Shown here piece by piece: positions 4,583 to 21,585 of a DNA stretch of 64,000 nt (within the stretch, counting starts at the first letter, position 1; every line of letters starts with the position of its first letter). Position numbers and translations under genes: made by a program. The notes below the pieces were generated by a model. The model worked only from the letters and a program-made list of their open reading frames with translations. It ran no database searches and was not told where the DNA came from. Source of the DNA: Bradyrhizobium sp. CB1650. Its GTDB lineage: Bacteria; Pseudomonadota; Alphaproteobacteria; Rhizobiales; Xanthobacteraceae. The stretch covers positions 5,795,501 to 5,859,500 of the forward strand of contig NZ_CP121695.1 in the NCBI RefSeq assembly GCF_029761915.1. The letters are read 5' to 3'.

Positions 4583-4683
4583 CGTGTATCTCCGCTCCAG
4601 AAATCGCATACGTGATGAAAACTTACCGGAAGAGCCGGCAATCGAGTTGCCGTAGGATCAACGCTGCATCTCTCTCGACTCCC

Positions 4684-6057: not shown

Positions 6058-7594
6058 GATCGTTCTGGCCATCGGAGACGGATTGCGCGGCGAGATCGGC
6101 GTATAGGCCTTCGTACAGCGCCCGGACGCGGTCCTTGTGGTAATAGTCGGCGACGCGACGGCGCATGACGTCCGCCATCTCTGCCCGCATGTCGCGATCA
6201 CGCAGGACTGTGGCCAGCGCTTCGGCCATCGCCTTGGGATTGCAGGGCTCGACGACGAACCCTCCACGTCCCTTGACCGGATCCCCTTCGAAACCCTCGA
6301 GGATCTCGCGACACGATCCCACATCGGTCGACACGATCGGAATCCCGATCGCTGCCGCCTCCAGCACCGCGATGGGCTGGGCTTCACTGATGCTCGATAG
6401 CGCCAGTACATCGGCCGCGCCGAGGTAAGCCAGGACATCCGGCACCCGACCGGGAAACTGCATCGACGAGCCGACACCGAGCTGATCGACGAGCCGGTGA
6501 CAGCTTGCCGCGTATTCGGGATCTTCGTCCTCCGGCCCGATCAGGATCGCCACGACGTCAGGCACCAGTTCCTTCAGCAGCGCGACGGCCATAATGAAGC
6601 TTCTGACATCTTTGATTGGCACGATGCGACCGATCATCAGCACCGTCGGCGGCCGAGGCGTCGTGTTTTTCGGGACAGCCGCGAACTTTGCGACGTCGAT
6701 GCCATTGGGGACGATCCGCAGCTTCTCGTCGGGTGCGCCGTCATTGCGCTGGAAGTTCTGGTTAGCGCGGTACTGCGTCGTGATGACGTCGGCGACATCG
6801 TAGCTGATCTTCGAGAAGGATTTGAACGCCTCCAGCCAGGTCGATCGCAGCTCGATCGGCTCGGCGGTCACGTAACCTCCGGCGCCCGAGTCGAATAGCC
6901 AGTCGGACACCGCGAGCTCGATCCGGCGCTCGTTCGTATAGATTCCGTGCTCGGTGACCAGTAACGGCACTTTCGCGGCCACCCGGGCATAGCTGCCCAC
7001 GATCCCGGCGAACCCCGTTGCCACCGCATGAAATACGCGAGCCGGTGGCAACGGGGTGGTGATCACGGCGAGCACGCTGCACACGAGGAAGCGCCATGAC
7101 CAAAAGAAATCGAGCAGCGGCCCGTTAGGCAGAAGGCCTTCGTAGGCCTCCTCCATGGCTCGCCAACCTTCTTTGGAGTCCAGCAAGGCTGCCCGCCCAA
7201 ATCCTGTGCTCCGCACGAGCTCGATCAGTTCCGCGAACTCGTCTCCGTTTCCCGTAGTCAGCGCGCTCCGCAATCCCTTGAAAATTCGCTTCAGGCTGTC
7301 CGCGTCACGAGACGTCGGAATGCGCCCGCGCGGACAGACGTCCAGGAGGATGTCGGTGACGCCGAGGACGTTGTCGGGAAGCACGAAACTGCGACGCCGC
7401 GGCTGGCTGGAAATGCTGATCGCAATGACATGGAACGTCAGCGTCGGCGAGGCCCGCATCAACGCGTCGGACCATGACGCCACACCGCCGAGCACATAGG
7501 GGTAACCTCCCTCGACGATCAGGCAAACGTCAGCCGTACCTGTCGCTGTAGACTGTTTCGAAACAATCCGGTGCTCGGATGGCGACGACGACAT
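6032..7594 (-). CDS. pelF: PelF-like cytosolic glycosyltransferase (GT4)
   Basis: 520 residues, close to the usual PelF length. The N-terminal DVCLIVEGGYPYVLGGVASW is the PelF signature. The second Rossmann half carries MIGRIVPIKDV, and the family's paired glutamates are in SEAQPIAVLEA (E404 and E412, spacing E-x7-E), the donor-sugar site of GT4 enzymes. The ATG at 7594 overlaps the pelE stop (TGATG) and has GGAGG 5 nt upstream; a GTG one codon earlier is possible. PelF polymerises UDP-activated amino sugars in the cytoplasm in the known system. The sugar used here is not evident from sequence, and the nearby nucleotide-sugar genes suggest it may differ from GalNAc/GlcNAc. Confidence 0.93.
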   Translation of the reverse strand: MSSSPSEHRIVSKQSTATGTADVCLIVEGGYPYVLGGVASWSDALMRASPTLTFHVIAISISSQPRRRSFVLPDNVLGVTDILLDVCPRGRIPTSRDADSLKRIFKGLRSALTTGNGDEFAELIELVRSTGFGRAALLDSKEGWRAMEEAYEGLLPNGPLLDFFWSWRFLVCSVLAVITTPLPPARVFHAVATGFAGIVGSYARVAAKVPLLVTEHGIYTNERRIELAVSDWLFDSGAGGYVTAEPIELRSTWLEAFKSFSKISYDVADVITTQYRANQNFQRNDGAPDEKLRIVPNGIDVAKFAAVPKNTTPRPPTVLMIGRIVPIKDVRSFIMAVALLKELVPDVVAILIGPEDEDPEYAASCHRLVDQLGVGSSMQFPGRVPDVLAYLGAADVLALSSISEAQPIAVLEAAAIGIPIVSTDVGSCREILEGFEGDPVKGRGGFVVEPCNPKAMAEALATVLRDRDMRAEMADVMRRRVADYYHKDRVRALYEGLYADLAAQSVSDGQNDHDRHQHHH

Positions 7595-8508
7595 CACGCC
7601 CTCCGGCTCGATAGTTGTCGCCGCGCGGCGTCCAGGCGATCGGCCGACACCTGATCGGCAGGATCCAGCTCCTTTGCGCGCGACAAGTCTCCGACGGCAG
7701 ATTCAATCTGTGCACGCGCCTGCTCGCCTTCGAGCAGTCCGCTCGCAGCATAGGCAAGGCGGGCTTCCGCGAGATTGCGCCAGCTCAGTGCGGTCAGGGG
7801 ATGCGCGGCCGCTGCGGTCTGGCAGGCGCCGACCTTGCCGACAAATACGGCGTGGAGCTTGGATATGACGGTCGCCGCCAGCACGCGCACCGACGCGTCG
7901 GAGTCGCGCAAGCCGCGCCTCAAGACGCCAACCAGCCGCGTCTCGAACTTCCGCCAAACGACGCCCAAAGCCTCGAGCTTCGCCGGCTGCGAACCATCGG
8001 AGATTGCGTCCATCAGCGGATGGATAAGAGAAGCTCCTTCTATGCGCATGCGGTGGTCGAGCAAGGCGATGTGAACGCGCTCGCAGTACTCGACCTCGGA
8101 ATGCTCCGTTGTCATGCGCGCAATACCCTGGTCGCGCGCCATCCGCAATTGAAGCGGCGACGAGAACGCAACAGCCGTCGCAACGAGCGTGCCGAACGGC
8201 CCCGCCACGGCCGACCACGCGACAATCTGCAACGCTGCCGCGCAGCGGTTGCCGCTCCCGGCGCGGCGCGCGTACCATACCAGGGGAGCTGCCAGCGCCG
8301 CGCTGCCCAAGACATCGGCTGTGATGTACGTCCCGAGGCCGATCTGGCCGTCGAGGAGCGCATCGAGCAGCGCGGCTTGACAGCCAAACAGCGCGACGGC
8401 GAAACCGGAGAGCCAGAGCGTGGATCTGACAAGGCGGTGGACGCGCCGCACGAACTGGGCAACTCCCCTTCGGTCGACCGCGCGTTGGAGGGCCGCGGCG
8501 GGCATCAT
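7594..8508 (-). CDS. pelE: PelE-like inner-membrane protein
   Basis: 304 residues from the ATG at 8508, which overlaps the pelD stop in an ATGA arrangement; a start ten codons upstream is also open. Two or more hydrophobic helices (FAVALFGCQAALLDALL, LGSAALAAPLVWY, IVAWSAVAGPFGTLVATAVAF) fill the N-terminal half. The C-terminal half is soluble, alanine-rich and helical, with TPR-like character. This matches PelE, which bridges PelD to PelF and PelG in the membrane synthase complex. The sequence itself is poorly conserved, so the call rests on topology, length and its place between pelD and pelF. Confidence 0.82.
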   Translation of the reverse strand: MMPAAALQRAVDRRGVAQFVRRVHRLVRSTLWLSGFAVALFGCQAALLDALLDGQIGLGTYITADVLGSAALAAPLVWYARRAGSGNRCAAALQIVAWSAVAGPFGTLVATAVAFSSPLQLRMARDQGIARMTTEHSEVEYCERVHIALLDHRMRIEGASLIHPLMDAISDGSQPAKLEALGVVWRKFETRLVGVLRRGLRDSDASVRVLAATVISKLHAVFVGKVGACQTAAAAHPLTALSWRNLAEARLAYAASGLLEGEQARAQIESAVGDLSRAKELDPADQVSADRLDAARRQLSSRRA

Positions 8509-9554
8509 GAGCGCGCCTCCGGCGCTGCCTCCGGGCACGCGTGCAGAATTGTTGCAAACGCGCGTCCGATCTCGTCGGCGCGGCGGTAGAACTCGTTTGC
8601 GTCGCGCGATTCATCCAGGTCACAGACGATCACCGCCAACTGCGCCGCGGCATCACCGGACGGCGGCACCCGAACGACATGACGCTCGAGCCGCGGCTCC
8701 AGATCGCTTGCGCTGGGGCGGAGTTCGCGGCTCTCGTCTTCAATGATCATGGCCTCGACCGCGAGGACGGAAAGCGACTGCATCGAACCTGTGGGGCGGA
8801 TGTTGTCATCCGCGATGGCCCACACCGGCACGTAACCGCCACGATCCCTCAGATAGACCGCCATGGTCGAGGCGCCAGTGGCGACGCGGAACAGCTCGCC
8901 ACAGCTCTGCGCGGCGGACCGCCGATTACTGAGATCGATCAGCGCGAGACTTCGCGAGAACGCCGCTGCGCTGCCGGTTTCGAGTGCAAGCCGGCGTTCA
9001 AGCGCGTAGATCTCGATTGCTGCACGCTCGATGCCGCCACTAAGGTCGTTGGCGCGCCGACGCATGACCGCAAGCTGGTCGGCCAGCTCCTGGAATTGGT
9101 GAATATGCAGGTTACGCAGGCCACCGAGGACCAGGGCCGTCGCCAGCCAGGTTGCAGGCTGGACCGCGACCATCCGGGCATATGCGTAATAGTCCTGGAC
9201 CGCAGAAGGCGGCGACAATTGAGCAAGGTATATCGCCGACGCCGCAATGCTCGCGATCAGGCCGCCGTTGACCCCGTATTGGCAAGACGCCAGAAGGACC
9301 GGAAGCCAGTAAGGATGCGGCAGCCCGAGAACGTCGACCGTGCCGAACAGCCAGTGCTGCAAGGCAGTGATGACGCCGAGCATCACGAATGTTTCCAGGA
9401 GCAGCCTCCGCCACTCCGCGAGCGAAAGAATTTCGAGCAACGGCAGCTCCCGGTGCGGCACGCCGCCGTCGCCGGTCTTCACACTTCGATCCTCCGCGCG
9501 GTTCCTCACAGAGGCCGGAACCGCCAGATCACTCTTGATCGAAGTGCTCGACAT
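8505..9554 (-). CDS. pelD: PelD-like membrane protein with GAF domain but no GGDEF domain
   Basis: 349 residues from the ATG at 9554 (GGTGAG about 9 nt upstream); an open frame continues to 9599. Several transmembrane helices (about residues 50-150) are followed by a short helical linker and a GAF domain. The linker and domain run from ALERRLALETGSAAAFSRSL through YLRDRGGYVPVWAIADDN to the C-terminus. Pseudomonas PelD has about 455 residues and ends in a degenerate GGDEF domain whose inhibitory-type site binds c-di-GMP. Here the protein stops at the end of the GAF domain and pelE begins at once. The usual c-di-GMP receptor part is therefore missing. Role: scaffold of the PelDEFG complex, probably activated differently. 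Confidence 0.88.
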   Translation of the reverse strand: MSSTSIKSDLAVPASVRNRAEDRSVKTGDGGVPHRELPLLEILSLAEWRRLLLETFVMLGVITALQHWLFGTVDVLGLPHPYWLPVLLASCQYGVNGGLIASIAASAIYLAQLSPPSAVQDYYAYARMVAVQPATWLATALVLGGLRNLHIHQFQELADQLAVMRRRANDLSGGIERAAIEIYALERRLALETGSAAAFSRSLALIDLSNRRSAAQSCGELFRVATGASTMAVYLRDRGGYVPVWAIADDNIRPTGSMQSLSVLAVEAMIIEDESRELRPSASDLEPRLERHVVRVPPSGDAAAQLAVIVCDLDESRDANEFYRRADEIGRAFATILHACPEAAPEARS

Positions 9555-9706
9555 GACCGGATACTCACCAGAGAGCGCTAGCGGCCTGACGATGCACACA
9601 CTTTTTCAGGCCACAGGCGATCATCGCGCAAAGCACGCATCGGACGGCACGTGCGAGCGCCGGATGATTGGTGTAACGGCTGATTTTGGAGAACGCCAAC
9701 CAAGAA

Positions 9707-9774: not shown

Positions 9775-10686
9775 TCAGCGACTCTCGGGTACGATCAGGT
9801 CCAGCGATCGCGTCGCGACGTAGGGATGATGACCAAGTTCGCGTTCTCGACGATAGATTTCCGCGATCGTGCTGGCGTCATCTGGATTCCAGTAGTCGAG
9901 GCTCAAAATCGGCAATGGCGGAATTCTGCGCGTCGCGGGCTGGAGCAGTTCCAGTTGCAGGTCGAGCTGATGACGATCGATCCATGCAAAGCCTTCGCCG
10001 CGCGGCCCGGGTGAAGTCATCAGGCTCTCGGCAATCACGGCGTCGATCTGCCCAACGAGATCCGGCAACAAGGCATAGCCCCTGTTCATGATCAGCATCA
10101 TGTCCGGCCAGCGGGCGCGGATCGACACCACCAGCTCGATGGCGGCGGCACGCATGCCGCTGTAGCGGTTCTGATCCAGCTTTTCGAGATAAGGCGGCGT
10201 GTCGAGAGCATCGAACATGAGGCCGGTGAAGCCTTGCGCCGCGAGCGCCGGGACCCTGACGTCCAGGATGAGCGACCGCCATGTCGGATGCCTGATGTCG
10301 ACCCGGTGGGTCCCGGGCCAGTCCGGGTTCTCCGGAAGCAATGCCGCGGGGTCGAGCCGTGCGACGAGCGGGTCCGACATCCTGATTTCGGCGAGGCTGA
10401 GATACCCGCAGACCTTTCCGCCGCCGTCGGCGACCCGACCGATCGAGCCCTGAAAATCAGGGTCCAGCACCACAATGTCGTAGGTTGCCAGGACAGCCTC
10501 CTCGGCCGTCACTCCGTAGAATGCCAGCCAATGGATGGTCTTCCGCGCGTCCGTATTCACCTCGACCGAGCCGGCTGCTCCAGTCCCCGCAGACAGGAAG
10601 GCTGCACCCGCGGCCAGAAATCGTCGGCGTGTCGGCCGCCCCAAGCCGGCGGCGAGCCGGTCGATCAAGGATCGTGCCTCGATCAT
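9775..10686 (-). CDS. PelA-type endo-acting glycoside hydrolase (GH166/GH114-like), Tat-exported
   Basis: 303 residues. The N-terminus carries a twin-arginine signal (TRRRFLAAGAAF, residues 19-30). The rest is a TIM-barrel hydrolase like the N-terminal domain of PelA. HWLAFYG begins strand 1, GFTGLMFDALD supplies D159 and D162, and DAVIAESLMT supplies E220. E220 corresponds in position to the catalytic Glu of Pseudomonas PelA (about residue 218). The family hydrolyses α-1,4-galactosaminogalactan-type polymers in the periplasm. In Pseudomonas this domain is fused to a deacetylase; here it stands alone. The start codon overlaps the reductase stop (ATGA), so translation is coupled. Tat export rather than Sec implies periplasmic delivery after folding. 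Confidence 0.88.
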   Translation of the reverse strand: MIEARSLIDRLAAGLGRPTRRRFLAAGAAFLSAGTGAAGSVEVNTDARKTIHWLAFYGVTAEEAVLATYDIVVLDPDFQGSIGRVADGGGKVCGYLSLAEIRMSDPLVARLDPAALLPENPDWPGTHRVDIRHPTWRSLILDVRVPALAAQGFTGLMFDALDTPPYLEKLDQNRYSGMRAAAIELVVSIRARWPDMMLIMNRGYALLPDLVGQIDAVIAESLMTSPGPRGEGFAWIDRHQLDLQLELLQPATRRIPPLPILSLDYWNPDDASTIAEIYRRERELGHHPYVATRSLDLIVPESR

Positions 10687-11606
10687 GACACCCGCATTGC
10701 GCGTTGTTCCATTGCGCGAGATATCCGCGCGATCACGCCTTGGAAGTTGGTCGGCGGAGGCGGACAGCCGAGCCTTTCAAGCAGATCGGTACTGCCGATG
10801 ATGGTGCGCGGCTCGTTGCCTCGCACCCGCGACCAATCCACCTCGATGTCCACCTTTCGCCCTGAGAAATCGATCAGCATTTCGACCAGATCGCGCAGAA
10901 GCGGCGCCTGGCCGCTGCAGATGTTCACAACGCCGCGAGCATCGCGCTTGTCCGCGAGCTGGCACAGCAGCGTGGCAATGTGCTCGACGTCGATCATGTC
11001 GCGCCGCACGTCGATGTTGCCGACGTGCAGCGTGCCGCAATGGCCCGGCATGGACGCAATCTGGTTGGCAAAATCCCCGATCGCCAGGTGCGTCGGCATG
11101 TCGGGCCCCAGCGCGTTGAAGATGCGCGCCACCAGCACGGGTGTGCCGGTCGCATCGCCGTAGGCAAGCGCCGCGCGGGTCTGAGCCTGCTTGCTGACGC
11201 CATAGGGAGAAAGCGGCGCGCAAGTCGCCGTTTCCGGGACGGGTTCGCCGTCTCGGATCGCGCTGCCGTACTCGGCGGCACTGCCGGCCAGGATCAATCG
11301 CGGCCGCAGACCGGTCCGCTTGAGCGCTCGAAACAGGGCCCGGACCAGATCGGCATTGGTGTGCGTGAGCTCGGCCGGCGTTCCGCGCGCCTGCCCTGCG
11401 AGATGAAAGATGCAGTCGGGCTCCGCATCCTCGAGAGCCCAGTCGAGAGCTGGCGAATCCCAGGATGCATCGTCGAGGACAACATGCGCCACGTCGGCCG
11501 CCGGCCGGCGACCGATCGTTGTGACGGCCACGCCGCGCTGGCGAAGCGCGCCGACAAGATGCCGTCCGATGAAGCCCTGACCGCCCGTGACGACGGCGCT
11601 ACGCAT
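10683..11606 (-). CDS. NAD(P)-dependent nucleotide-sugar reductase/epimerase (RMD-like SDR)
   Basis: 307 residues from the ATG at 11606, which overlaps the end of the nucleotidyltransferase gene by 8 bp; the open frame upstream runs through that gene and is rejected. The cofactor motif is GGQGFIG, an active-site-like Ser-Ala-Ala-Glu-Tyr lies in AGSAAEYG, and the catalytic Tyr/Lys pair is in YGVSK. The sequence HLAGQ and the short length fit GDP-4-keto-6-deoxy-mannose reductase-type enzymes. Expected role: reduction of a 4-keto-6-deoxy nucleotide sugar, the step after a 4,6-dehydratase such as the one at 3596-4582. Whether the nucleotide is GDP or UDP cannot be told by eye. Confidence 0.8.
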   Translation of the reverse strand: MRSAVVTGGQGFIGRHLVGALRQRGVAVTTIGRRPAADVAHVVLDDASWDSPALDWALEDAEPDCIFHLAGQARGTPAELTHTNADLVRALFRALKRTGLRPRLILAGSAAEYGSAIRDGEPVPETATCAPLSPYGVSKQAQTRAALAYGDATGTPVLVARIFNALGPDMPTHLAIGDFANQIASMPGHCGTLHVGNIDVRRDMIDVEHIATLLCQLADKRDARGVVNICSGQAPLLRDLVEMLIDFSGRKVDIEVDWSRVRGNEPRTIIGSTDLLERLGCPPPPTNFQGVIARISRAMEQRAMRVS

Positions 11607-12396
11607 GACCCAAAAACGCCTCGCGATCTTCCTCAAACATCTTCTGCGCAAGTGCAAAGTCGTCGGGTCGCCCGATATCAAGCCAGACGCAATTGTCCTG
11701 ATAGCAGACGACGTTGCCATTGTTTCCGTTGATCTTCAGCAACAGATTTGGCATGTCGAGATAGTCGACATTGGACACGTGAGGCCGCACCGCCTCGCGC
11801 TGGAGAATGTAGACACCCATGCTGACGTGATATTTGCTGGTTGGCTTCTCGCGGTACGCGCACATCCGATTCCTGGCGTCAAATTCGATCAAGCCGAAGT
11901 CGATCTTGTTTTCGCGCTCGTAGACGCCGACCGATGCATCTGCATTTTCGGCGATATGGCGCAGCGCCATATTCCTGAGGTTCATCGTGGTCAGGAGATC
12001 TCCGTTCGTCACGAAGAACGTGTCGTCCAGGTGGGGCAGCATGTTGCCGAGGGCGCCTGCGGTACCCAGCGGCTTCTCCTCATCGCTGTAGTACAGCTTG
12101 AGTCCGAGGTCCGACCCGTCGCCGAAATAGACTTCGATCAGATGTCGAAGGTGATTGACGGCGATTATCACCTCGCGCACTCCGGCCGCTCTCATCCGCC
12201 TGAGAAGGAGCTCCAGGATCGGCATATCGCCAAGCGGCATCAGAGGCTTCGGAAACAGGGCCGAATATGGATGGAGACGTGTCCCCTTACCTCCCGCCAT
12301 GATGACCGCCTGGCGAACGATAGCCGGCGGCTGTTCGCAGATAGGATAGGCGTGGCTGATCGCAGATCGAGACCCAGGAAAGGAAAGCTCATTCAT
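11599..12396 (-). CDS. Sugar-1-phosphate nucleotidyltransferase
   Basis: 265 residues. The nucleotide-binding signature VIMAGGKGTRLHPYSALFPKP is followed by the base and sugar pocket segments (PLGTAGAL, FFVTNGD) and the metal-binding region near WLDIGRPDDF. It is a single-domain pyrophosphorylase without the C-terminal hexapeptide-repeat or isomerase extension of bifunctional enzymes. It makes an NDP-sugar from NTP and a sugar 1-phosphate, probably the precursor for the dehydratase and reductase of this locus. The gene opens a run whose members overlap (nucleotidyltransferase, reductase, hydrolase). The 364-bp region in front carries the best copy of the shared palindrome and no gene. Confidence 0.87.
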   Translation of the reverse strand: MNELSFPGSRSAISHAYPICEQPPAIVRQAVIMAGGKGTRLHPYSALFPKPLMPLGDMPILELLLRRMRAAGVREVIIAVNHLRHLIEVYFGDGSDLGLKLYYSDEEKPLGTAGALGNMLPHLDDTFFVTNGDLLTTMNLRNMALRHIAENADASVGVYERENKIDFGLIEFDARNRMCAYREKPTSKYHVSMGVYILQREAVRPHVSNVDYLDMPNLLLKINGNNGNVVCYQDNCVWLDIGRPDDFALAQKMFEEDREAFLGHA

Positions 12397-12614
12397 TCGC
12401 CGTCTCCATAATTGCGGTGACGGTCACCCTCACCTTCGCGATTGGGGCGGGTGCCGCCGCATGCTGATGACGCATAACTTCGAAATAAGGTACGCCGCTG
12501 GAGCTTCGCTCTCGTCACATCCAGCAGCGCTCGGAATCCAGAAATATCTTTTCGATGGCCACCATTAATGTCACGGACTGTAACTTATCGAATGCACCGA
12601 CAGCCAACGCCAAT

Positions 12615-12632
12615 ATCTGATTTGCATCAGAT
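12615..12632 (-). promoter_or_regulatory. Perfect 7-4-7 palindrome upstream of the nucleotidyltransferase
   Basis: ATCTGAT-TTGC-ATCAGAT, a perfect inverted repeat 218 bp upstream of the ATG at 12396. It sits inside a 364-bp non-coding gap (12397-12760) in which I find no gene. It is the cleanest member of the set at 2084 and 9707. Size and symmetry suit a dimeric helix-turn-helix regulator. Confidence 0.6.
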
Positions 12633-12760
12633 GGGCCTTGAGGGCCCGCTTCCCGTTGCCCGCATCGCCCTGCTCGCTGCGACAATTGTCGTCAACCACC
12701 AGGCGAAGAGGACAGAGAGCCACACCGTCCAGTCACGACGCCGTCGTGCTGTCTGCGAGA

Positions 12761-14671
12761 CTATTGCTCCGGCGCGCGGACGGGTTCGACGCAGTTCATC
12801 TTGATCTCGACCGCATCGGTCGCGCTGGCAGGAACGACGAACTTCAAATTTCCGGCATTATCGGCATCCGCAGTCTGCTGCCAGATGTCCTCGCCTGCCC
12901 GACTGGCCTTGATCGCGTAGTGTCCAGGCACGGCGCCCGACCAGAGGAACGAGCCGTTACCGTAACCGCGCGCCTCGAAACGCGCCGCACATGAGCCTTT
13001 CACGAGGCGACTGATGAACCATCGACTTTCGACCAGAGCCAAGCTCCGAGCGCTCGTGCCGGAGGGGCGCAGGACGACAATGGCCTGCTCGATTGCCCGG
13101 TCCAGCGCCACATAAAGCGTGCCACCAACCCGCTTTTGTCCTACGACCCCGACGCTGAGGTCGAGGTCCACTTCGCGGTCATCGGCGGCGTCGAACCGGA
13201 TCGTCTGCAGCGCGCCGCGATTGCTAATCCGCCAGGCCGCGCTGCCTACGCGATCTATGCGCGTACGAAAGAACCCGTCGACTATGGCCGCATAGCCGTC
13301 CACCGACACGGGGCTGAGGGCGCCGGAATTGGCCTCACGCAGCAGATCCTTCACCGAGCGCAGCAGGGCCGGATATTCGCCCGCATAGGCATGATAGCTC
13401 ACGGTGAACGGCTTGAGGCGACGTGGTGCTTCGGTGTTGAGGAGGGTTTCCTTCAGCGCAACAAACCCATTTTGACCGATCGGCCCCTCCTTGATGTAGT
13501 AGCTGTCATCACTGATCGGCATATTGATGAGCTCATCGGGACCCGCAGCGCTCAAAGGCGCAAGGTTTGAAATCGATGGATACTCCGCGTCGAACCGGGA
13601 GAGCGTCGCGCGCAGTCGGCGTTGCGGCAGAACGACGTGGCTGGAGGCCAGCAGGCGTTCCCGCAGGATTTGTGCCTGCCTGGCGCTCCTGCCGAAATTC
13701 GTGGCTGCCTCCTCGCGAAGCTCGACGGTCGTCGAGAAGCCGTCGAACGGCTCGATCAGGTCACGCAGGACGACATCGCCAGCCGTCAGAGAGTTGTCCC
13801 GGGCGTCTTCGATCTTGCTCGATCGAGTCCAGCCTTCGTTGTCGAGCACACCAAGGAACAGCCGATTGCCCGATGCGGTTGTCACGTCCGGCACCGGCTG
13901 CTCGTTTGCATCGAACGCCGCGCCAAAGAAGGCGAACGGATTGAGCAGCCACCTGCCCTGGAACAACGGGGGTCGTTGATGACAGAACTCGTAGCCGAAC
14001 GCGGCATAGCCGCCTCGCGCACCGAGCGCCACCAGAACCGCCGACCGGCGTCCGTCAGAGGGCGGCGTTTCGAGCATCAGTCCGACGTGCGTACCGGGCC
14101 CGTTCGCCGCAATGACCGGATAGTCAGGGATGACCGGGTCGAGGCTGCACTCGAACTCGATCAGGCCTGCATCCTTGTAGGCAATGCGCGTTCCCAGCGT
14201 CGGCGCGACGTAGTCGCCGGTGTGACGGATACCGAGTACGCTGAGCAGCCGGTTCACCGCCAGAAGGTTGGCCGAATCGGGCGCAACGCCGATGTCGCCC
14301 AGGATGACGTAGCGCAGGTTCCGGCGCGAGACCTGGTTCGCCCAAGCGAGATAGGCATCGCTGTTCGCAACCGGTCCGGCGAACCAGGTGATCACGCCGC
14401 GGTAGCGCTCCATCTCGGCCGGACTTGGCAATCCGCTGACAATGTCTCGAAATTTGACGATGAAGCCCAGATGATTGAGCGGCAGTTCGGCAAAGCGATG
14501 AATCCGCGAAAGCTCGGCACTGCCCTCCTGCGCACCATCATAAAGCGCGAGGATTTCGCGCTTGACGGGCGTCGGCTCCTGCGTTGCGGCGGCGAGCGCG
14601 CCACAATTGGCAACAACGGCTAAAAGACCGGCTGCGAGCAGGCTTAGGCGAAGGCGTGCTGAGATGGCCAT
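12761..14671 (-). CDS. PelA C-terminal-like protein with degenerate deacetylase domain
   Basis: 636 residues from the ATG at 14671, chosen because a signal peptide (residues 1-28) then begins directly; the frame is open to 14701. The order of parts follows PelA after its hydrolase domain: a reductase/flavodoxin-like domain (ILALYDG...ITWFAG), a deacetylase-like domain, then a C-terminal β-rich domain. VSYHAYAGEYPALLRSVKDLL corresponds to the YYHFYSG...AL segment of PelA. In the deacetylase domain, the HxDGDG motif that supplies base and metal ligand reads GVLDNEGW (D277, E279). The HxxxH metal pair reads around YPSISNLAPL (about 362-372), with no histidines. It therefore looks catalytically dead for deacetylation and may be a binding or scaffold protein. 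The alignment is by eye. Confidence 0.72.
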   Translation of the reverse strand: MAISARLRLSLLAAGLLAVVANCGALAAATQEPTPVKREILALYDGAQEGSAELSRIHRFAELPLNHLGFIVKFRDIVSGLPSPAEMERYRGVITWFAGPVANSDAYLAWANQVSRRNLRYVILGDIGVAPDSANLLAVNRLLSVLGIRHTGDYVAPTLGTRIAYKDAGLIEFECSLDPVIPDYPVIAANGPGTHVGLMLETPPSDGRRSAVLVALGARGGYAAFGYEFCHQRPPLFQGRWLLNPFAFFGAAFDANEQPVPDVTTASGNRLFLGVLDNEGWTRSSKIEDARDNSLTAGDVVLRDLIEPFDGFSTTVELREEAATNFGRSARQAQILRERLLASSHVVLPQRRLRATLSRFDAEYPSISNLAPLSAAGPDELINMPISDDSYYIKEGPIGQNGFVALKETLLNTEAPRRLKPFTVSYHAYAGEYPALLRSVKDLLREANSGALSPVSVDGYAAIVDGFFRTRIDRVGSAAWRISNRGALQTIRFDAADDREVDLDLSVGVVGQKRVGGTLYVALDRAIEQAIVVLRPSGTSARSLALVESRWFISRLVKGSCAARFEARGYGNGSFLWSGAVPGHYAIKASRAGEDIWQQTADADNAGNLKFVVPASATDAVEIKMNCVEPVRAPEQ

Positions 14672-14781
14672 AGCTCGCTTCCATAACGTCCTGTCCCCCA
14701 TCGCAATATGGGCATATTCTGGTGAGCAGGCAACGCGTTCTCTCCCTCCTTGTGCACCACTCCCTTCCTCCGGGTCTGTCG

Positions 14782-17700
14782 TCAGACCAGATGGAAGTCG
14801 ACCGAGACGCCTGCCTTGAGCGTTGCAAGCGACACATTGTTGAGCGTGATCGAGTCGGTCGGATCGATCGTAATCACGACGTTGGTGCCCTGCTGGGCCA
14901 CCGTGACGAGCCCGCCTGCGGCGTTTTGGGCGGTGCCGTTGACGAGGGCGGTCGCGGTGGTGCCGGACATGAACATCGACAACGAGAGCTCAAGCACGTC
15001 GTGGCTGGTGTTGGTACCGTTCGCGAGGAAGTCGGTGATCACGTCCTTGCCGAAGCCTGCGACGTATACGCCGCCGCTGGTGGTGGTCGGATTGACCGGC
15101 GCGAAAGCGAAGGTGTCGCTGCCGTTGCCGCCGGTCAGCAGATCGTTGCCGGCGCCGCCGATCAGCCTGTCATTCCCCCCTCCGCCCGAGAGCGTGTCGT
15201 TGCCGGCGCCACCGGTGATGGTGTTCGCCAAACCGTTGCCGTTGCCGACGAAGTTGCCAGAGCCGGTGTAGGTCAGGTTCTGGACGTTCGCGGGCAGGGA
15301 ATAGCTGGCCAGCAAGGTCATAACGGTCGAACCTGTCGCACCGGCTGTCTCAGTTACAATGGTCTGGGCATTGGTCACGGTGAACGTGTCGGCGCCGCCC
15401 CCTCCTCTAAGCGTGACGTTGGCAAACCCGCCGTCGCCGAGTGTATCTGCGCCCACTCCTCCGGTGATCGTTTCCCCTGCGGCAGTAGCCGTCGAGCTGA
15501 AGCTTCCCGATCCGGTGTAGACCAACCGCTCGACATTGGCCGACAGTTGCAGGGTCGACAGCGTCGTCTGCACGGTGTCGGTACCCTCGTTGGGATTCTC
15601 CTGGATCACGGTCGCCGCATTGGTGACGACGAAGGTGTCGTTACCGGCACCGCCGATCAGTGTGATGCCAGACTGATCGTTGTCTTTCAGGATATCGGCG
15701 CCGGCGCCGCCGTTCAGGGTCTGATTGGCAGCTCCAGCCGTCAGGGTATCGGCCCCTCCCAGACCATTGATGATCGCGCCCGGCGTCGTGCTGGTCAGAT
15801 TGTCACTCGATCCCGTTCCGTTGACGAGCACTGCCGCGGCAAGCTGCGCGGCGGTCACGAGACCGTCACTGAACTGAAATAGTTCGACATTGGAAAACGT
15901 CGCCGTGCCGTTCGGGCTGCCTGATCTCGTGTCCACGAGCGTGATGCTGCCGTCCGGATTCGTGGTTTTGGTATATTGGCCAAGTTGGCCGCTGAAGATG
16001 GCCGTGTCGGTTCCGTCGCCGCCATTGATCGTGCTGATCCCGTCAAAGCCGCGGAAGGTGTTATCCGACACGTTGCCGGTCACGGTGGTGCCGGTGTTGC
16101 CCGTGTACACGAAGTTCTCGACGTAATCTGGCATCACGAAGGAGGCGAGATTCGTCTGGATCGTGTCGGTGCCACCCGTCGGCTGCTCTGTGATGACGTC
16201 GTTTGCCCTGGTAACGACATAGGTATCGTTGCCGGCCCCGCCGATCATGGTATCGATGATGCTTGCGGGTGCCGTCCTGCCGGCATCGCGAAGCGTATCG
16301 TTGCCGTCACCGCCGTCGAGGGTGGTGTTGCCGCCGATGCCAGCCGTAAGCGTGTCATCGCCGCCGAGGCCGAGGATCGTCTGGCCCACATTCGCCGTCG
16401 AGGTGCCGGTCAGAGTGTCATTGCCGGCGGTCCCGATGATGAAGCTGCCGTCCACCCCCTGGATATTGATCGTCAGCATTGCGGAGGATTGACTGCCATC
16501 CGCGTCCTTCACGGTGTAGTTCAGCGTGAAGGACAGATTACTTGCCGACGTCAACGCCTGCGTTGCCGCGCGGTTGCTGTCAAGCGCATAACTCCAGGTG
16601 CCGTCATTGTTCTGCACCAGCGTGCCGTAGGTGTTCAGCGCGGTGATCGCCGCCGCATCGTTCGCCCCCCAGGACACGAAGCTCAATGGCGCATCCGCCC
16701 CGGACGCGTCGTTGCTGAGCACGTTGCCCGTCAGCGGGCTGAGGCTCCCTTCCGTCACGGTGGACGGGCCATCATTGACCGCCTTCGGCGTGTCATCGAC
16801 CGCCCGGATCACCAGGTTGTCGCTGGCCGTCGCGGCGGTAGATCCGTGCACTGTCAGCAGGACGCTATCGTTGAACCCGGTGGCATCGACGGTATCGCTG
16901 CCGGTCGGAACCTTGGTGGCATTGTTGATCGGTCCCGACAGTGTGTAACTGAAGCTCACCGTGCCGCTGAGGCCGTCGCCGGTGTAACTGGTCAGCGTCA
17001 GAACGCCTTCGCCCGTATTCACGACTCCGTTGGTGGAGGCAAAGGCCTGGATCTGCGCCAGCGTGAACGTCGTCCCGCCGACCACGAGGTCCTTGATCCC
17101 GTCGCTTGCCGAGATCGTGAAGGTGCCGGTGGTGGTCGCGCTACCCGACCCCGAGCCGGTCGGGAGCCCAGCCTCGGACACCGTGGCGTCCGGGCCGGTC
17201 GCCTGCGCCGTCACCACCGTGGCGGCGGCGGTGGCGTCCGCACCCGTGATGGTGATCGTCAGCGTCGACGACGATTGATCGCCGTCGGCATCCGTCATCG
17301 TGTAGTTCAGCACCTCGGGGAGAACATCTTTCGATGTCAGCGCCTGCGTCGCCGCACGGCTGCTGTCCAGCGTGTACGACCAGGTGCCGTCATTGTTCTG
17401 AACCAGCGTACCGTAGGTGTTCAACGCGGCAATCGTGGTCGCATCGGCTGCGCTCCATGAGACGAAGCCCTTGGGCGCATCCGCACCGGAGAGGTCGTTG
17501 TTCAGCACGTTGCCCGACACCAGGCTGACGCCGTTCTCCACCACCCCGTACCCGCTGTCGGCGACCGCGGTCGGCACGTCGTCGAGCGCCCGGATCACCA
17601 GGTTGTCGCTGGCCGTCGCGACGCCGCCGGCGCCATGGATTGTCAGCAAGATGCTGTCGTTGAACCCGCTCGCATCGACAGTGTCGTTGCCGGTGGGCAC

Positions 17701-20700
17701 CGTGGTAGTATTGTTGATCGGTCCCGACAGCGTGTAGCTGAAGTTCACTGTGCCGCTGGAGCCATCCCCGGTGTAACCGGTCAAGGTGAGAAGACCTTGG
17801 CCTGTGTTCACGACCCCGTTGGTGGTGCCGAAGGCCTCGATCTGCGCCAACGAGAAGGTCGTGCCGCCGACCACGAGATCCTGGATCCCGTCGATTGCGA
17901 GGATCGTGAAGCTGCCCGTCGTGGTCGCGCCGCCCGACCCGGCAGCCGAACCGTTCGGACTGAGCCCGGCTTCGGACACCGTCGCATCCGGGCCAGTCGC
18001 CTGTGCCGTTACCACGGCGGCGCGGTTCAGCAACTGAGCCTGCGTGAATGTCCCGTTGCCGAACCGATAAAGCTGAATATTAATGTCGGTGTCCGTGCCG
18101 TCAGGAGAGCCGCCACGCACGTCGGTCACGGTGAGACTGCCGTTCGGATTCTGCACGAAGCTGTAGTTGCTCGTCGTTCCCGAATAGACCGCGGTATTGG
18201 TGCCGCCGCCGCCGTCGAGGACATCGTTGCCGCCGCCGCCCGTGATGACATCATCGGCGGTCCCGCCAAAGACCAGGTCGGCACCTGCGGAGGTGACCGC
18301 GGCCGCGCCGTCAGAGATCGCGACATTGTGCTGGACCGCCAGCCCCTGCGGGCCGTTCGGGTTGATCGCGAGTGCGCCGTCATTGAATGTCAACGAGAGA
18401 TCGTCTCCGCTCAGCGTCGCGGTCGGCGCGCCCTGGATCGACACGACATTCGCGCCGGGAGTCTTGACGTGGACGTCGACGACGCCGTCGCCCGTCATCG
18501 CAAACGATAGATTCGATCCATCGCCGGTCGCGGACAACAGATCGGCGCGCATCGGCAGCAGATCGATATGCGTGACGTCATCCTGCGTGGTACCGAGCGT
18601 GACAGTGAACGTGCCGCCGCCATAGGGCAGGAAGATGCTGTTGCTGTCGTAGGCATACCAATTGCCGGCGTTCTGGATGACCTGGCCGGTGGCGGCGTTG
18701 GTCACGTTGAGCGCCATCGCGCCGAGATCGGGCGCCGTCGGATCCGGTGTGATCGTCGCGGTGATCACGTTGCCGTTGGTGGTCTCGGAGAGGCTCGCCT
18801 TCTGCTGCGCGGCGATGCGCGCGGCGAGGTCCTCCGAGGTCACGAACTCATAGCCCGCATTGAAGGCATAGGCGATGAAGTTGGTGAACATCTGGGTGGT
18901 GTAACCGGCTCCATGGCCCGCCCCGCCGGTGCCGTTCGTATCCCAGTCAGTCGCGCCATAATCGTGCCAGGGCCACACAACGATAGGCGTCTGCGAATTT
19001 GCCGAGACCTGGTTGAACAGCGATTCCCAGTCGGCGAGCGCCTGCGCGACCGTCTTGTGCTGATACTCGATCTCCGTGAAGTCGAAGGTGATGTTCGGAG
19101 CGATGTAGACCGAGCCGGTGTGGTTCGGGTCGATGTAGCCGAACGCGTTCGGATAGCCGGAGCCGACGCCGGTCCATCCGCCGTTCACATAGCCGGTGAG
19201 GCCACCACCGCTCGGGTAATATTGCAGGATATTGGCCGACGTTCCGACGGTGTCGTTGGCGCCAGGCACCGCCGCTCCGGCGACCTTGATGCCGAGATTC
19301 TGATCCAGAAGCGTATTCGACTGTCCGAATTCGTACGCAAAGGTCCAGTTCGGCGCATTGGCTGGCGCGTTGACATAGAGGGTGTTGGTGTTCTCACTCC
19401 AACTGGGGTCCGGTGGATTGATCAGGTGGGTATACGAGTGGCTGCCAATCTCGCTGCCCATGGCCATGATCGCCTTGTAGTAGGGAGCGGAGACGGCCCA
19501 GTTGGTGGTTTCCCCTTTGGCAGGACTATCGCCGATATTGGCATAGAACGAGCCGACGAAATTATATTGCTGCTTCCACTGCTGCAGGATGGGGATCAGC
19601 GCGTCATAGATGCCCTGTTGGCCCGCGCCCGGCGACACGTCAGACGGGAATTGGGACTGATCGAGGTCGGTGCGGGAGTCGACGATCCCGGCCATCCGCG
19701 TGATATCGATCGCCAGGCTCGGCGTCGTGCCAAACACGGCGTTCTGGATCGCGTGTTGCAGCAGGTTGCTGTCGCCGAGCAGGCCGGTGGTCGCAAAATG
19801 CGTGTTGGTGCCGCCCGTGGTGGTCTGCACCACGCCGGCCACCGTCGCTCCGTTCTGGATGTTGATGTCCGCCAGCACCGTCGTCGCGGTCTGGCCATAG
19901 CCCGAGAAGGTGAGATAGCCGGTATTGGTGTAAAAGCCCTGGGTCGTCCCCGCGAACTGACCGCTGGCGCCGCCGATCATTTGGCCTGCGGTGTAACCGC
20001 TGACCACCGGATTGTGATTGGCGAGCGCGGTGGGATCGGCCGTGAGCGAATAGGTTGCCGTTCCAGAACTGCCCAGCGTGAGGCCCAGCAGCGCCTGCAT
20101 GTTGGCGTAGGAATTGAGGGGCAGCGGCGCGCCAGTCTGGTCATTGGTCAGGAAATTGCCGGCCGTGATGATCGGCACATGATAGTCGTAGACCACGTGG
20201 GTCAGCGCGCTGACGATTGCCGACACCTGGCTCGACTGCACATCCTCCATGCTCGGGAAGATTAGCGCGCTGTACTGCGACAGCTTCGCGACATTGGTCA
20301 GGTCGGCCTCGGTCAGGAGGTCATAGGAGACGCCCGCCGCCTCCGCCTGGTGCTGCGCGGCCATGAACAGATCGGCATAGGCGGTCTGGCCTGCAGCTCC
20401 GCCGCCGAAATACAGGGCCGCCGTTGTCGCCGAATAGACGATGCCGACTTTCTTGACCGTGTGGTCGACCGGGACCAGCGTCGACGGATCTGTGATGGTG
20501 TATTGCGGAGCGGTGAAATCGGCTGGCAGTCCGACGCTACCGTTGATCAAGGCGGCGAAATTGATCGAGGTGGGTGCGGAGCCCCCCGTGGGCGTCAGCA
20601 GCACCTGCGGGATCGCCAATTCGACGCTCTTGCCATCGGCCGACATGGCGAACTTGAGCGGAGCGCCGTTGTTGAGCAGGGTCTCGGTGTGGTTCGACGT

Positions 20701-21585
20701 GACTGAATACAGATAGGGCTTAAGGAGATTGTCGTCGCTCGGGTCAAGCGCGAACTTTACCTCATATTCTGCGCCGACGCTGCCGAACGGCGAGTAACCG
20801 GTCGTGGCGTTTTGATCCGTGTTCAGATAGATGACGGTGGTTGATCCGATCACCTGATCGCTCGCATCGGTCGCGTCGATGCCGATCACATAAGTCTTGC
20901 CGAGTGTCGTATCATTGATCAGGGCACCGTCGACCTGGTAATTCGCAACGGTGTTTCCCGGTCTCTCGACGGAATCGGCCGCCGGCCAATCCGCGAACTG
21001 ACCATCGAGCGTGATCACGTTTCCGATCGTGACGGGGGTTACCGGGACAGAGGGATCGGTGATGACGTAGAGCGGGGTGGCACTGAAATTTGCTGGCAGG
21101 GCTTCCCCCGCGCCATTGTTGATCAGGGCCGTAAAACCAATCGAAGTGGGCGCAGTCCCGCCCGATGGCGTCAGCAGCGCCTGTGGGATCGCGACTTCGA
21201 CGCTCTTTCCATCGCTGGAAATACCGAAGTCGAGCGGCGCGTTACCGTTGAGCAGTGTGTTTGTGCTGTCGTACAGGTAAGGATGAAGGCCTGTCGCATC
21301 AGCTACGAACAGCACGTAATACTCGGCGCCGCCGAACACCTGCAGGCCTGTCGCGGTGTTTCGGTCCGTATTGAGGTAGATGGCGGTTCCGGCTTGGATA
21401 AGCGGATCGCCTGGCGCCATCGCCTCGATGCCGATCACATAGGTCTTGACCGACGCATCGGAGAGCAACTCACCGAAGACCTGATAGTCTGCCACGCTGT
21501 TGAGCGGCCGCTCAACGAGATCGGCCAACGTCCAGTCGCTGAAATCGCCATCGAGTGTGATCCGGTTTCCGATCTTTGTCGGCAT
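14782..21585 (-). CDS. RTX protein with polysaccharide deacetylase domain, probable T1SS substrate
   Basis: 2,267 residues, no signal peptide. Order of parts: two copies of a β-sandwich module starting ITLDG-x-F-x-DW (about 1-180 and 182-365), similar to CBM9-like domains; a reductase/flavodoxin-like domain as in PelA (about 375-590); and a deacetylase domain (about 620-910). The deacetylase has D636 (GIVDSRTD), the histidine pair H716 and H720 (SHSYTH) and a later H874 (WPWHDYG). A β-rich region and a short RTX block (about 1100-1135) follow, then two VCBS/cadherin-like modules (about 1190-1710). Further calcium-binding GGxGxDxL nonapeptides end in a typical RTX C-terminus (about 2115-2160 and beyond). 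Expected role: an extracellular, calcium-folded enzyme that deacetylates the polymer. GAGGG precedes the ATG by about 10 nt. Exporter not linked by sequence but present at 31555-36945. Confidence 0.85.
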   Translation of the reverse strand: MPTKIGNRITLDGDFSDWTLADLVERPLNSVADYQVFGELLSDASVKTYVIGIEAMAPGDPLIQAGTAIYLNTDRNTATGLQVFGGAEYYVLFVADATGLHPYLYDSTNTLLNGNAPLDFGISSDGKSVEVAIPQALLTPSGGTAPTSIGFTALINNGAGEALPANFSATPLYVITDPSVPVTPVTIGNVITLDGQFADWPAADSVERPGNTVANYQVDGALINDTTLGKTYVIGIDATDASDQVIGSTTVIYLNTDQNATTGYSPFGSVGAEYEVKFALDPSDDNLLKPYLYSVTSNHTETLLNNGAPLKFAMSADGKSVELAIPQVLLTPTGGSAPTSINFAALINGSVGLPADFTAPQYTITDPSTLVPVDHTVKKVGIVYSATTAALYFGGGAAGQTAYADLFMAAQHQAEAAGVSYDLLTEADLTNVAKLSQYSALIFPSMEDVQSSQVSAIVSALTHVVYDYHVPIITAGNFLTNDQTGAPLPLNSYANMQALLGLTLGSSGTATYSLTADPTALANHNPVVSGYTAGQMIGGASGQFAGTTQGFYTNTGYLTFSGYGQTATTVLADINIQNGATVAGVVQTTTGGTNTHFATTGLLGDSNLLQHAIQNAVFGTTPSLAIDITRMAGIVDSRTDLDQSQFPSDVSPGAGQQGIYDALIPILQQWKQQYNFVGSFYANIGDSPAKGETTNWAVSAPYYKAIMAMGSEIGSHSYTHLINPPDPSWSENTNTLYVNAPANAPNWTFAYEFGQSNTLLDQNLGIKVAGAAVPGANDTVGTSANILQYYPSGGGLTGYVNGGWTGVGSGYPNAFGYIDPNHTGSVYIAPNITFDFTEIEYQHKTVAQALADWESLFNQVSANSQTPIVVWPWHDYGATDWDTNGTGGAGHGAGYTTQMFTNFIAYAFNAGYEFVTSEDLAARIAAQQKASLSETTNGNVITATITPDPTAPDLGAMALNVTNAATGQVIQNAGNWYAYDSNSIFLPYGGGTFTVTLGTTQDDVTHIDLLPMRADLLSATGDGSNLSFAMTGDGVVDVHVKTPGANVVSIQGAPTATLSGDDLSLTFNDGALAINPNGPQGLAVQHNVAISDGAAAVTSAGADLVFGGTADDVITGGGGNDVLDGGGGTNTAVYSGTTSNYSFVQNPNGSLTVTDVRGGSPDGTDTDINIQLYRFGNGTFTQAQLLNRAAVVTAQATGPDATVSEAGLSPNGSAAGSGGATTTGSFTILAIDGIQDLVVGGTTFSLAQIEAFGTTNGVVNTGQGLLTLTGYTGDGSSGTVNFSYTLSGPINNTTTVPTGNDTVDASGFNDSILLTIHGAGGVATASDNLVIRALDDVPTAVADSGYGVVENGVSLVSGNVLNNDLSGADAPKGFVSWSAADATTIAALNTYGTLVQNNDGTWSYTLDSSRAATQALTSKDVLPEVLNYTMTDADGDQSSSTLTITITGADATAAATVVTAQATGPDATVSEAGLPTGSGSGSATTTGTFTISASDGIKDLVVGGTTFTLAQIQAFASTNGVVNTGEGVLTLTSYTGDGLSGTVSFSYTLSGPINNATKVPTGSDTVDATGFNDSVLLTVHGSTAATASDNLVIRAVDDTPKAVNDGPSTVTEGSLSPLTGNVLSNDASGADAPLSFVSWGANDAAAITALNTYGTLVQNNDGTWSYALDSNRAATQALTSASNLSFTLNYTVKDADGSQSSAMLTINIQGVDGSFIIGTAGNDTLTGTSTANVGQTILGLGGDDTLTAGIGGNTTLDGGDGNDTLRDAGRTAPASIIDTMIGGAGNDTYVVTRANDVITEQPTGGTDTIQTNLASFVMPDYVENFVYTGNTGTTVTGNVSDNTFRGFDGISTINGGDGTDTAIFSGQLGQYTKTTNPDGSITLVDTRSGSPNGTATFSNVELFQFSDGLVTAAQLAAAVLVNGTGSSDNLTSTTPGAIINGLGGADTLTAGAANQTLNGGAGADILKDNDQSGITLIGGAGNDTFVVTNAATVIQENPNEGTDTVQTTLSTLQLSANVERLVYTGSGSFSSTATAAGETITGGVGADTLGDGGFANVTLRGGGGADTFTVTNAQTIVTETAGATGSTVMTLLASYSLPANVQNLTYTGSGNFVGNGNGLANTITGGAGNDTLSGGGGNDRLIGGAGNDLLTGGNGSDTFAFAPVNPTTTSGGVYVAGFGKDVITDFLANGTNTSHDVLELSLSMFMSGTTATALVNGTAQNAAGGLVTVAQQGTNVVITIDPTDSITLNNVSLATLKAGVSVDFHLV

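Follow-up and report, generated by a model that had tools for sequence, protein, structure and literature searches.

A Bradyrhizobium Pel-type exopolysaccharide cluster with an apparently inactivated PelA and a putative RTX-borne deacetylase

The stretch of DNA analysed here (the window) comprises 64,000 nucleotides of Bradyrhizobium sp. CB1650 (contig NZ_CP121695.1, positions 5,795,501 to 5,859,500), and its minus strand carries a Pel-type exopolysaccharide cluster between positions 547 and 21585. The PelA homologue of this cluster appears to be a pseudo-deacetylase, and deacetylation of the polymer has probably been taken over by a NodB-type metal-dependent de-N-acetylase domain embedded in a large RTX protein. 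This deacetylase unit (RTX-DA) likely represents a new and rare family of exopolysaccharide deacetylases. The cluster is assigned to the Pel type by its PelF, which scores 372.4 bits against a curated cut-off of 100 and is the only PelF over the cut-off in the genome, a single contig of 9.43 Mb. The same cluster is present in further genomes of the genus.

An earlier reading of this DNA, made from the letters alone (the sequence-only reading), had described a protein resembling the C-terminal part of PelA without the hydrolase, and this description holds. The protein matches the solved PelA chain 9cgy with an E value of 3.3e-26 and lacks the N-terminal GH166 domain, the alignment beginning at chain residue 255. 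Relative to the intact homologue P0012, about 120 residues of the NodB core are gone, including both metal-binding histidines, and the SHxxxHP motif is absent because of this loss. In Pseudomonas PelA, D528 is the putative base while D530, H600 and H604 bind the metal, and alanine mutants of the four residues in PtPelA are reported to have no detectable esterase activity (PMC12022489). The window protein reads V-D-E-gap-gap in the columns of H526, D528, D530, H600 and H604. Since the set of CE21 catalytic residues is incomplete, it is treated as a PelA relative and is not filed as a CE21 enzyme; judged by its sequence, it is catalytically dead. The motif GVLDNEGW had been correctly recognised as a PelA motif position, as it aligns with HIDGDGW, the base aspartate being kept as D287 and the metal aspartate replaced by E289. 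The second motif proposed at that time, SISNLAP, was rejected as a catalytic position since it sits past the gap in a block shared with intact PelA (PSISYLSPIS) and the true SHxxxHP lies in the deletion. The proposed gene start at 14671 gives way to 14701, where the longest open reading frame begins.

The PelA-like gene is rare, with matches in 2 of 198 genomes of the family (its own and G117, which has an intact site) and in 3 of 242 genomes of the genus, its own included. The same deletion is found in both other genomes of the genus (83-89% identity), in two Roseiarcus, and in one Devosia and one Hyphomicrobiaceae metagenome-assembled genome (MAG). Across the three copies of the genus, the ratio of nonsynonymous to synonymous substitution rates (dN/dS) is 0.23-0.30 overall and 0.21-0.34 over the three parts of the protein, with 0.21-0.31 for the NodB remnant. 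The overall value indicates purifying selection and, thus, a protein that has been kept.

The RTX protein of 2267 amino acids had been credited with an intact-looking deacetylase motif set, and this stands in the form Asp-x-Asp, His-x3-His and WHD. D640, D642, H716, H720 and H874, together with the W-H-D motif, are invariant in all 24 aligned copies of RTX-DA, so that a metal triad of Asp and HxxxH and an acid histidine can be read from the motifs in each of them. The Asp pair and the HxxxH are likewise invariant in alignments A3, A5 and A7, and all 6 plasmid copies examined contain the motifs. H716 and H720 had been named correctly in the sequence-only reading, while its third residue, D636, is not conserved among RTX-DA copies and was rejected as a catalytic position; the conserved acids are D640 and D642. 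In one species pair the unit has a dN/dS of 0.17. The protein also carries glycine-rich calcium-binding nonapeptide repeats (PF00353, 5.7e-19). The RTX-DA proteins of seven plasmid records are annotated as hypothetical proteins. Comparison of the RTX-DA and PelA profiles by hhalign gives a probability of 27-33%, driven by the HxxxH motif, and PelA 9cgy is absent from the structure-sequence matches of the broader RTX-DA profile at E<=10. Because the profile similarity hangs on HxxxH, descent of RTX-DA from PelA is not demonstrated.

The evidence that carries the reading is the distribution of RTX-DA with respect to the state of the PelA site. In named genomes 72 pelA loci were found, in a survey running well beyond the Bradyrhizobiaceae for which it had been suggested, and a dead PelA with a neighbouring RTX gene recurs in other genera. 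PelA was scored as dead when both metal histidines were lost, as judged by alignment column (pattern matching missed variants); three PelA proteins altered only at the base, those of L111 and L118 (Asp to His) and one of L096 (Asp to Asn), were counted as intact. Both metal histidines are lost in 14 loci, and the metal aspartate and both histidines are kept in the other 58. The site was lost by deletion in Bradyrhizobium lablabi, the two Roseiarcus, the Devosia MAG and the Hyphomicrobiaceae MAG, and H-x3-H is replaced by A-x3-R or S-x3-R in six Methylobacterium; the dead PelA also occurs in Aureimonas endophytica, Loktanella salsilacus and Rubellimicrobium roseum. At least 5 kb of flank on both sides of PelA was present in 9 of the 14 dead loci and 42 of the 58 intact ones. 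RTX-DA lies in the locus in 12/14 dead cases versus 0/58 of the others. In the two dead loci without the unit (L049 and L051) the contig breaks off within the locus, and L049 keeps the C-terminal part of the RTX gene.

Searches of whole genomes (69 covered, that of L089 left out) found RTX-DA in all 13 with a dead PelA versus one of 56 with only intact PelA (Fisher 4e-13, kinship ignored); the fourteenth dead PelA has RTX-DA in the locus itself. The single exception, G830, carries RTX-DA in a second pel cluster, where the 30 kb examined contain no PelA, and the only PelA of this genome is the intact one elsewhere. One Hyphomicrobiaceae MAG (G809, the same as G792) has one cluster of each kind. 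A. endophytica has a dead PelA and RTX-DA in the locus, while A. ureilytica has an intact PelA and no RTX-DA in its genome. As a side observation, a further pel cluster like that of the window (L133, G834:C57) occurs in Methylobacterium soli, with RTX-DA and no PelA within the 12 kb examined; the sole PelA match in the M. soli genome is the dead one of its other cluster. One Chlamydiae MAG (L096) carries three tandem PelA genes, including the one with Asp to Asn at the base, and has no RTX-DA in its genome.

A later, separate test took all 18 PelA matches in plasmids. Seven plasmids carry RTX-DA (three of Cereibacter, three of Sulfitobacter, one of Paracoccus) and PelA is dead in all seven, whereas the 11 without RTX-DA (three of Azospirillum, one of Azonexus, four of Caballeronia, three of Cupriavidus) all keep HIDGDG and SHTxxHP. 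The association has a p value of 3e-5 with near copies included and kinship ignored: two of the Sulfitobacter plasmids share a strain, two of the Cereibacter plasmids have identical RTX-DAs and a single species accounts for two of the Cupriavidus plasmids. In Sulfitobacter indolifex DSM 14862 two plasmids (L207 and L218) bear the same pel-RTX locus. On a plasmid of Cereibacter sphaeroides EBL0706 (L205) the dead PelA is split over two open frames, unlike its C. azotoformans relatives.

RTX-DA also follows the pel system when the starting point is not PelA. It is present in 2 of 385 alphaproteobacterial genomes, the window genome included, and both are among the 21 with PelF over the cut-off (p 0.003). 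PelF exceeds the cut-off in 10 of 11 RTX-DA genomes, the exception being the Devosia MAG G810. The idea that stand-alone copies mark an RTX family unrelated to pel was dropped, since all four genomes found by searches without pel genes (G000, G044, G074 and G955) carry PelF over the cut-off. PelF and RTX-DA are 19 kb apart in G074, a single contig, and 16 kb apart in G044, which has 90 contigs; both genomes have a completeness rating of 100%, and neither gave a PelA match. As a weak control, the surroundings of PelF were inspected in the 19 genomes of this sample with PelF and without RTX-DA: five have a PelA with both motifs, and three have a PelA piece that lacks the motif region and lies where the stretch ends. 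None of these short stretches, 11 of which hold no PelA, shows a dead PelA.

The loss of the PelA site was placed on a tree of the quick kind, with the NodB columns left out, L012 dropped as a copy of L057, and two long rows (L119 and L113). On the best tree the dead state arises by three changes: one in a Bradyrhizobium-Roseiarcus-Methylobacterium group that includes the Devosia and Hyphomicrobiaceae MAGs, one in A. endophytica beside the intact A. ureilytica, and one in Loktanella-Rubellimicrobium. A topology that unites all 16 dead rows in one clade is rejected by the approximately unbiased test (p-AU 0.001). RTX-DA tracks the dead state in all three independent pairs. The main groups of the RTX-DA tree (Rhodobacterales, Aureimonas, Bradyrhizobium-Roseiarcus and Methylobacterium) match the PelA groups, which fits joint inheritance; the RTX-DA of the Devosia MAG groups instead with that of G830.

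These observations are consistent with the following mechanism. PelDEFG would make and move a polymer resembling N-acetylgalactosamine polymers, and the polymer would leave through the exporter of the outer membrane polysaccharide export (OPX) type while still acetylated. The RTX protein would be released by type I secretion, fold in extracellular calcium and deacetylate the polymer outside the outer membrane. The PelA remnant would have been kept in the envelope complex for binding or assembly, close to the binding or scaffold part proposed in the sequence-only reading. That deacetylation had shifted to a probably secreted RTX protein was already proposed in the sequence-only reading; co-occurrence now lends this strong support, although the proposal had been reached partly through the wrong residues. 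For the Alphaproteobacteria as a whole the balance tips slightly towards a broader statement: Pel de-N-acetylation would have moved from the periplasm to the outside at least twice (three times on the best tree), with an RTX enzyme exported by a type I secretion system (T1SS) acting on acetylated polymer and with PelA reduced to a dead part of the export complex or lost.

Several results weigh against this reading. The matches of RTX-DA to PF01522 are weak: nine of the 13 members have E values under 0.1 (best 1.3e-7), the window unit gives 0.0064 and the whole RTX protein 0.031, the last two below the cut-off; solved deacetylases match the HxxxH part at 0.003-0.9 with one profile and, more weakly, at 0.009-0.75 with a broader one. 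The weak matches and the motifs together give modest confidence in a NodB fold for the unit. Once Aureimonas is left out, one clade for the remaining 15 dead rows stays acceptable (p-AU 0.27), and the branch of the Loktanella-Rubellimicrobium pair is long; with the rejection of the 16-row clade, two independent losses are therefore secure and the third is that of the best tree. The sign test is not significant (p 0.25) because there are only three pairs. The draft genome G955 has both an intact PelA and RTX-DA, each on a contig other than that of PelF. The window genome has two further, stand-alone RTX-DA genes (80% identity), and no pel gene was recognised within the surrounding 20 kb. Because the stretches around PelF are short, 11 of the 19 control loci give no verdict. 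The two Chlamydiae MAGs with histidine at the base position (L111 and L118, THDHH) keep the metal triad and have no RTX-DA in their genomes. No T1SS gene is adjacent to the RTX gene in the window. The nearest ABC gene of the exporter type is found at about 33.4-35.7 kb and scores 349.6 bits with the PrtD model, below the cut-off; it lies on the other strand than a neighbouring frame of 5477 amino acids and could serve that neighbour. Finally, P. aeruginosa needs deacetylation for extracellular Pel, as its D528A mutant makes none, and deacetylation is thought to be required there for export through PelC and PelB (PMC10269871).

Part of this would suit an RTX protein that is merely inherited along with the cluster, as an adhesin of the matrix or as an enzyme with a different substrate, the PelA site having been lost with a polymer of different chemistry or one that is not deacetylated. 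The extra sugar-nucleotide genes in the cluster, the stand-alone copies, G955 and the restriction to two secure losses speak for such a history; it is nevertheless unlikely, given that the same switch is seen in separate lineages and on plasmids, that the RTX motifs are invariant and the unit constrained, and that RTX-DA persists where no PelA is found. Less probable by some distance is a PelA that still deacetylates with other ligands, the RTX protein being an additional modifier that adjusts the matrix from outside the cell, in the way AlgE epimerases act beside AlgG. Equivalents of the aspartates remain in some dead members, and in the mixed alignment A6 the histidine that lines up with the PelA acid histidine (H437) hardly varies, yet both metal histidines are missing, deleted in one group and substituted in others, and the PtPelA alanine mutants argue against activity from such a site. 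A decaying pseudogene or an assembly error in a non-functional locus, as the missing catalytic core of about 120 residues might suggest, was rejected as hardly credible in view of the recurrence of the deletion in relatives and the dN/dS of the truncated gene.

If RTX-DA does deacetylate the exported polymer, deacetylation would be unnecessary for export, contrary to the Pseudomonas model. The loci are natural exceptions to the conservation of the PelA active site and would then also be exceptions to the need for deacetylation (PMC10269871, PMC12022489). Intact controls exist in a sister species and even in the same genome, which makes it testable whether deacetylation is needed for export or only for the role of the polymer outside the cell. 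Cereibacter, Methylobacterium and Bradyrhizobium are genetically tractable.

With regard to export, the RTX protein is probably secreted outside the cell; no obvious N-terminal signal peptide was seen by eye. T1SS genes are adjacent in 2 of 24 mapped loci, L050 having an ABC/HlyD exporter pair between the RTX gene and PelA and L022 a pair beside an RTX-DA gene, and in G074 an ABC exporter and an HlyD-type gene lie beside one RTX-DA. The window genome has four PrtD-type exporters over the cut-off. As a separate observation, one pel locus with intact PelA (L201, G1001:C16) has T1SS-type genes together with an RTX-repeat protein that lacks the deacetylase unit.

The features of the cluster are listed in Table 1; gene maps were drawn from mechanical open reading frames. 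The stand-alone hydrolase named in the sequence-only reading is indeed a PelA-hydrolase-like gene. Its best solved relatives are PelA 9cgy (1.4e-16) and the PelA hydrolase 5tcb (1.6e-16), with TM1410 at about 1e-6, which places it nearer to the PelA hydrolase than to TM1410/GH114 and points to GH166. The three-way split of PelA functions proposed earlier is borne out insofar as the genes are separate, but it is less distinctive than supposed. A stand-alone hydrolase was rejected as a mark of novelty because the hydrolase-like gene is a separate open reading frame in 6 of 8 mapped pel loci and PelA_DA and PelA_H are reported as separate proteins in Gram-positives (PMC7112168).

Table 1. Features of the Pel-type cluster in the window, in order of position
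Feature	Position	Strand	Remarks
Wza/OPX-type export protein (Poly_export, SLBB)	547..1935	-	
Tetratricopeptide repeat (TPR) protein, 460 amino acids	2144..3526	-	
GDP-mannose-dehydratase-like short-chain dehydrogenase/reductase (SDR)	3596..4609	-	belongs to cluster in relatives
PelG-like transporter	4684..6477	-	true start inside this open frame
PelF glycosyltransferase	6032..7597	-	NF038011, 372.4 bits (cut-off 100)
PelE-like protein	7594..8538	-	named by position and relatives
PelD-like protein	8505..9599	-	named by position and relatives in pel loci; no family match of its own above cut-off
Stand-alone PelA-hydrolase-like glycosidase	9775..10686	-	closest solved relative PelA, GH166
NAD-dependent epimerase/dehydratase	10683..11720	-	family scan
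Sugar-1-phosphate nucleotidyltransferase	11599..12396	-	family scan
PelA homologue without hydrolase and most of NodB core (predicted pseudo-deacetylase), 646 amino acids	12761..14701	-	
Stretch over the deletion that removed HxxxH, about residues 326-360	13622..13726	-	alignment with P0012 and relatives
Motif 1 remnant VLDNEGW (D287 kept, metal Asp replaced by E289)	13835..13843	-	alignment
RTX protein, 2267 amino acids, with embedded NodB-type deacetylase unit	14782..21585	-	RTX nonapeptide and VCBS/Big_9 repeats
Best-scoring RTX calcium-binding repeat block, residues 2116-2150	15136..15240	-	PF00353
RTX-DA unit, residues 376-935 (N-terminal part and NodB-like deacetylase)	18781..20460	-	
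H874 in WPWHDYG	18964..18966	-	putative catalytic acid, by analogy with CE4/CE18/CE21
H716-x3-H720 (HSYTH)	19426..19440	-	putative metal ligands
Asp pair D640-x-D642 (SRTDLDQ)	19660..19668	-	putative base and metal ligand

Two further large frames lie on the minus strand of the window. The frame of 5477 amino acids (38262-54695), of which 3231 amino acids were scanned and match DUF5801 in 12 stretches, likely encodes a giant adhesin. A frame of 1470 amino acids (55544-59956) matches cadherin, Big_9 and RTX repeats and is perhaps another surface or secreted repeat protein.

Among the literature matches listed (titles and openings of abstracts, with preprints and most subscription journals outside the scope), no published description of a dead PelA combined with an RTX deacetylase was found. 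An earlier pel survey noted rearrangements of pelA (PMC7112194), and a survey of full-length PelA homologues reports conserved active sites (PMC12022489). Compared with Pseudomonas PelA (CE21 and GH166), the window cluster shares a PelA homologue in a pelDEFG cluster, a hydrolase-like gene and alignable motif positions; it departs from Pseudomonas in having the hydrolase encoded separately, in the deletion of most of the NodB core and in the loss of the metal site. In Bacillus cereus the hydrolase and the deacetylase are also separate proteins (PMC7112168) and PelA_DA is predicted to be extracellular (PMC13254593), but there PelA_DA is itself active and membrane-anchored, whereas here PelA appears dead and the candidate enzyme is an RTX-bearing protein in a Gram-negative bacterium.

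Extracellular deacetylation of an exopolysaccharide has a precedent in Agd3 (CE18), whose bacterial homologues share clusters with GH114 and with outer-membrane genes resembling those of Pel (PMC7229062). RTX-DA does not appear to belong to CE18, as Agd3 has an adjacent Asp-Asp (D377 and D378) and more than 120 residues between motifs 1 and 2 (PMC7229062), in contrast to the Asp-x-Asp found in 24/24 copies and the 76 residues of RTX-DA. No chain named Agd3 is among the RTX-DA matches at E<=10, the presence of such a chain in the database being unchecked. RTX-DA resembles the CE4/NodB deacetylases in its weak Polysacc_deac_1 matches and its HxxxH motif; it differs in that these matches are weak and local and in that the unit is embedded in a giant RTX protein. 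A parallel in export and site of action is offered by the mannuronan epimerases AlgE1-7 of Azotobacter, which are extracellular, calcium dependent and exported by a T1SS and act on their polymer once it has left the cell (PMC4432689). The PDB matches of the RTX part include AlgE R-modules. The AlgE proteins are epimerases, not deacetylases, and the periplasmic AlgG stays active beside them, whereas the PelA of the window cluster appears to have lost its site.

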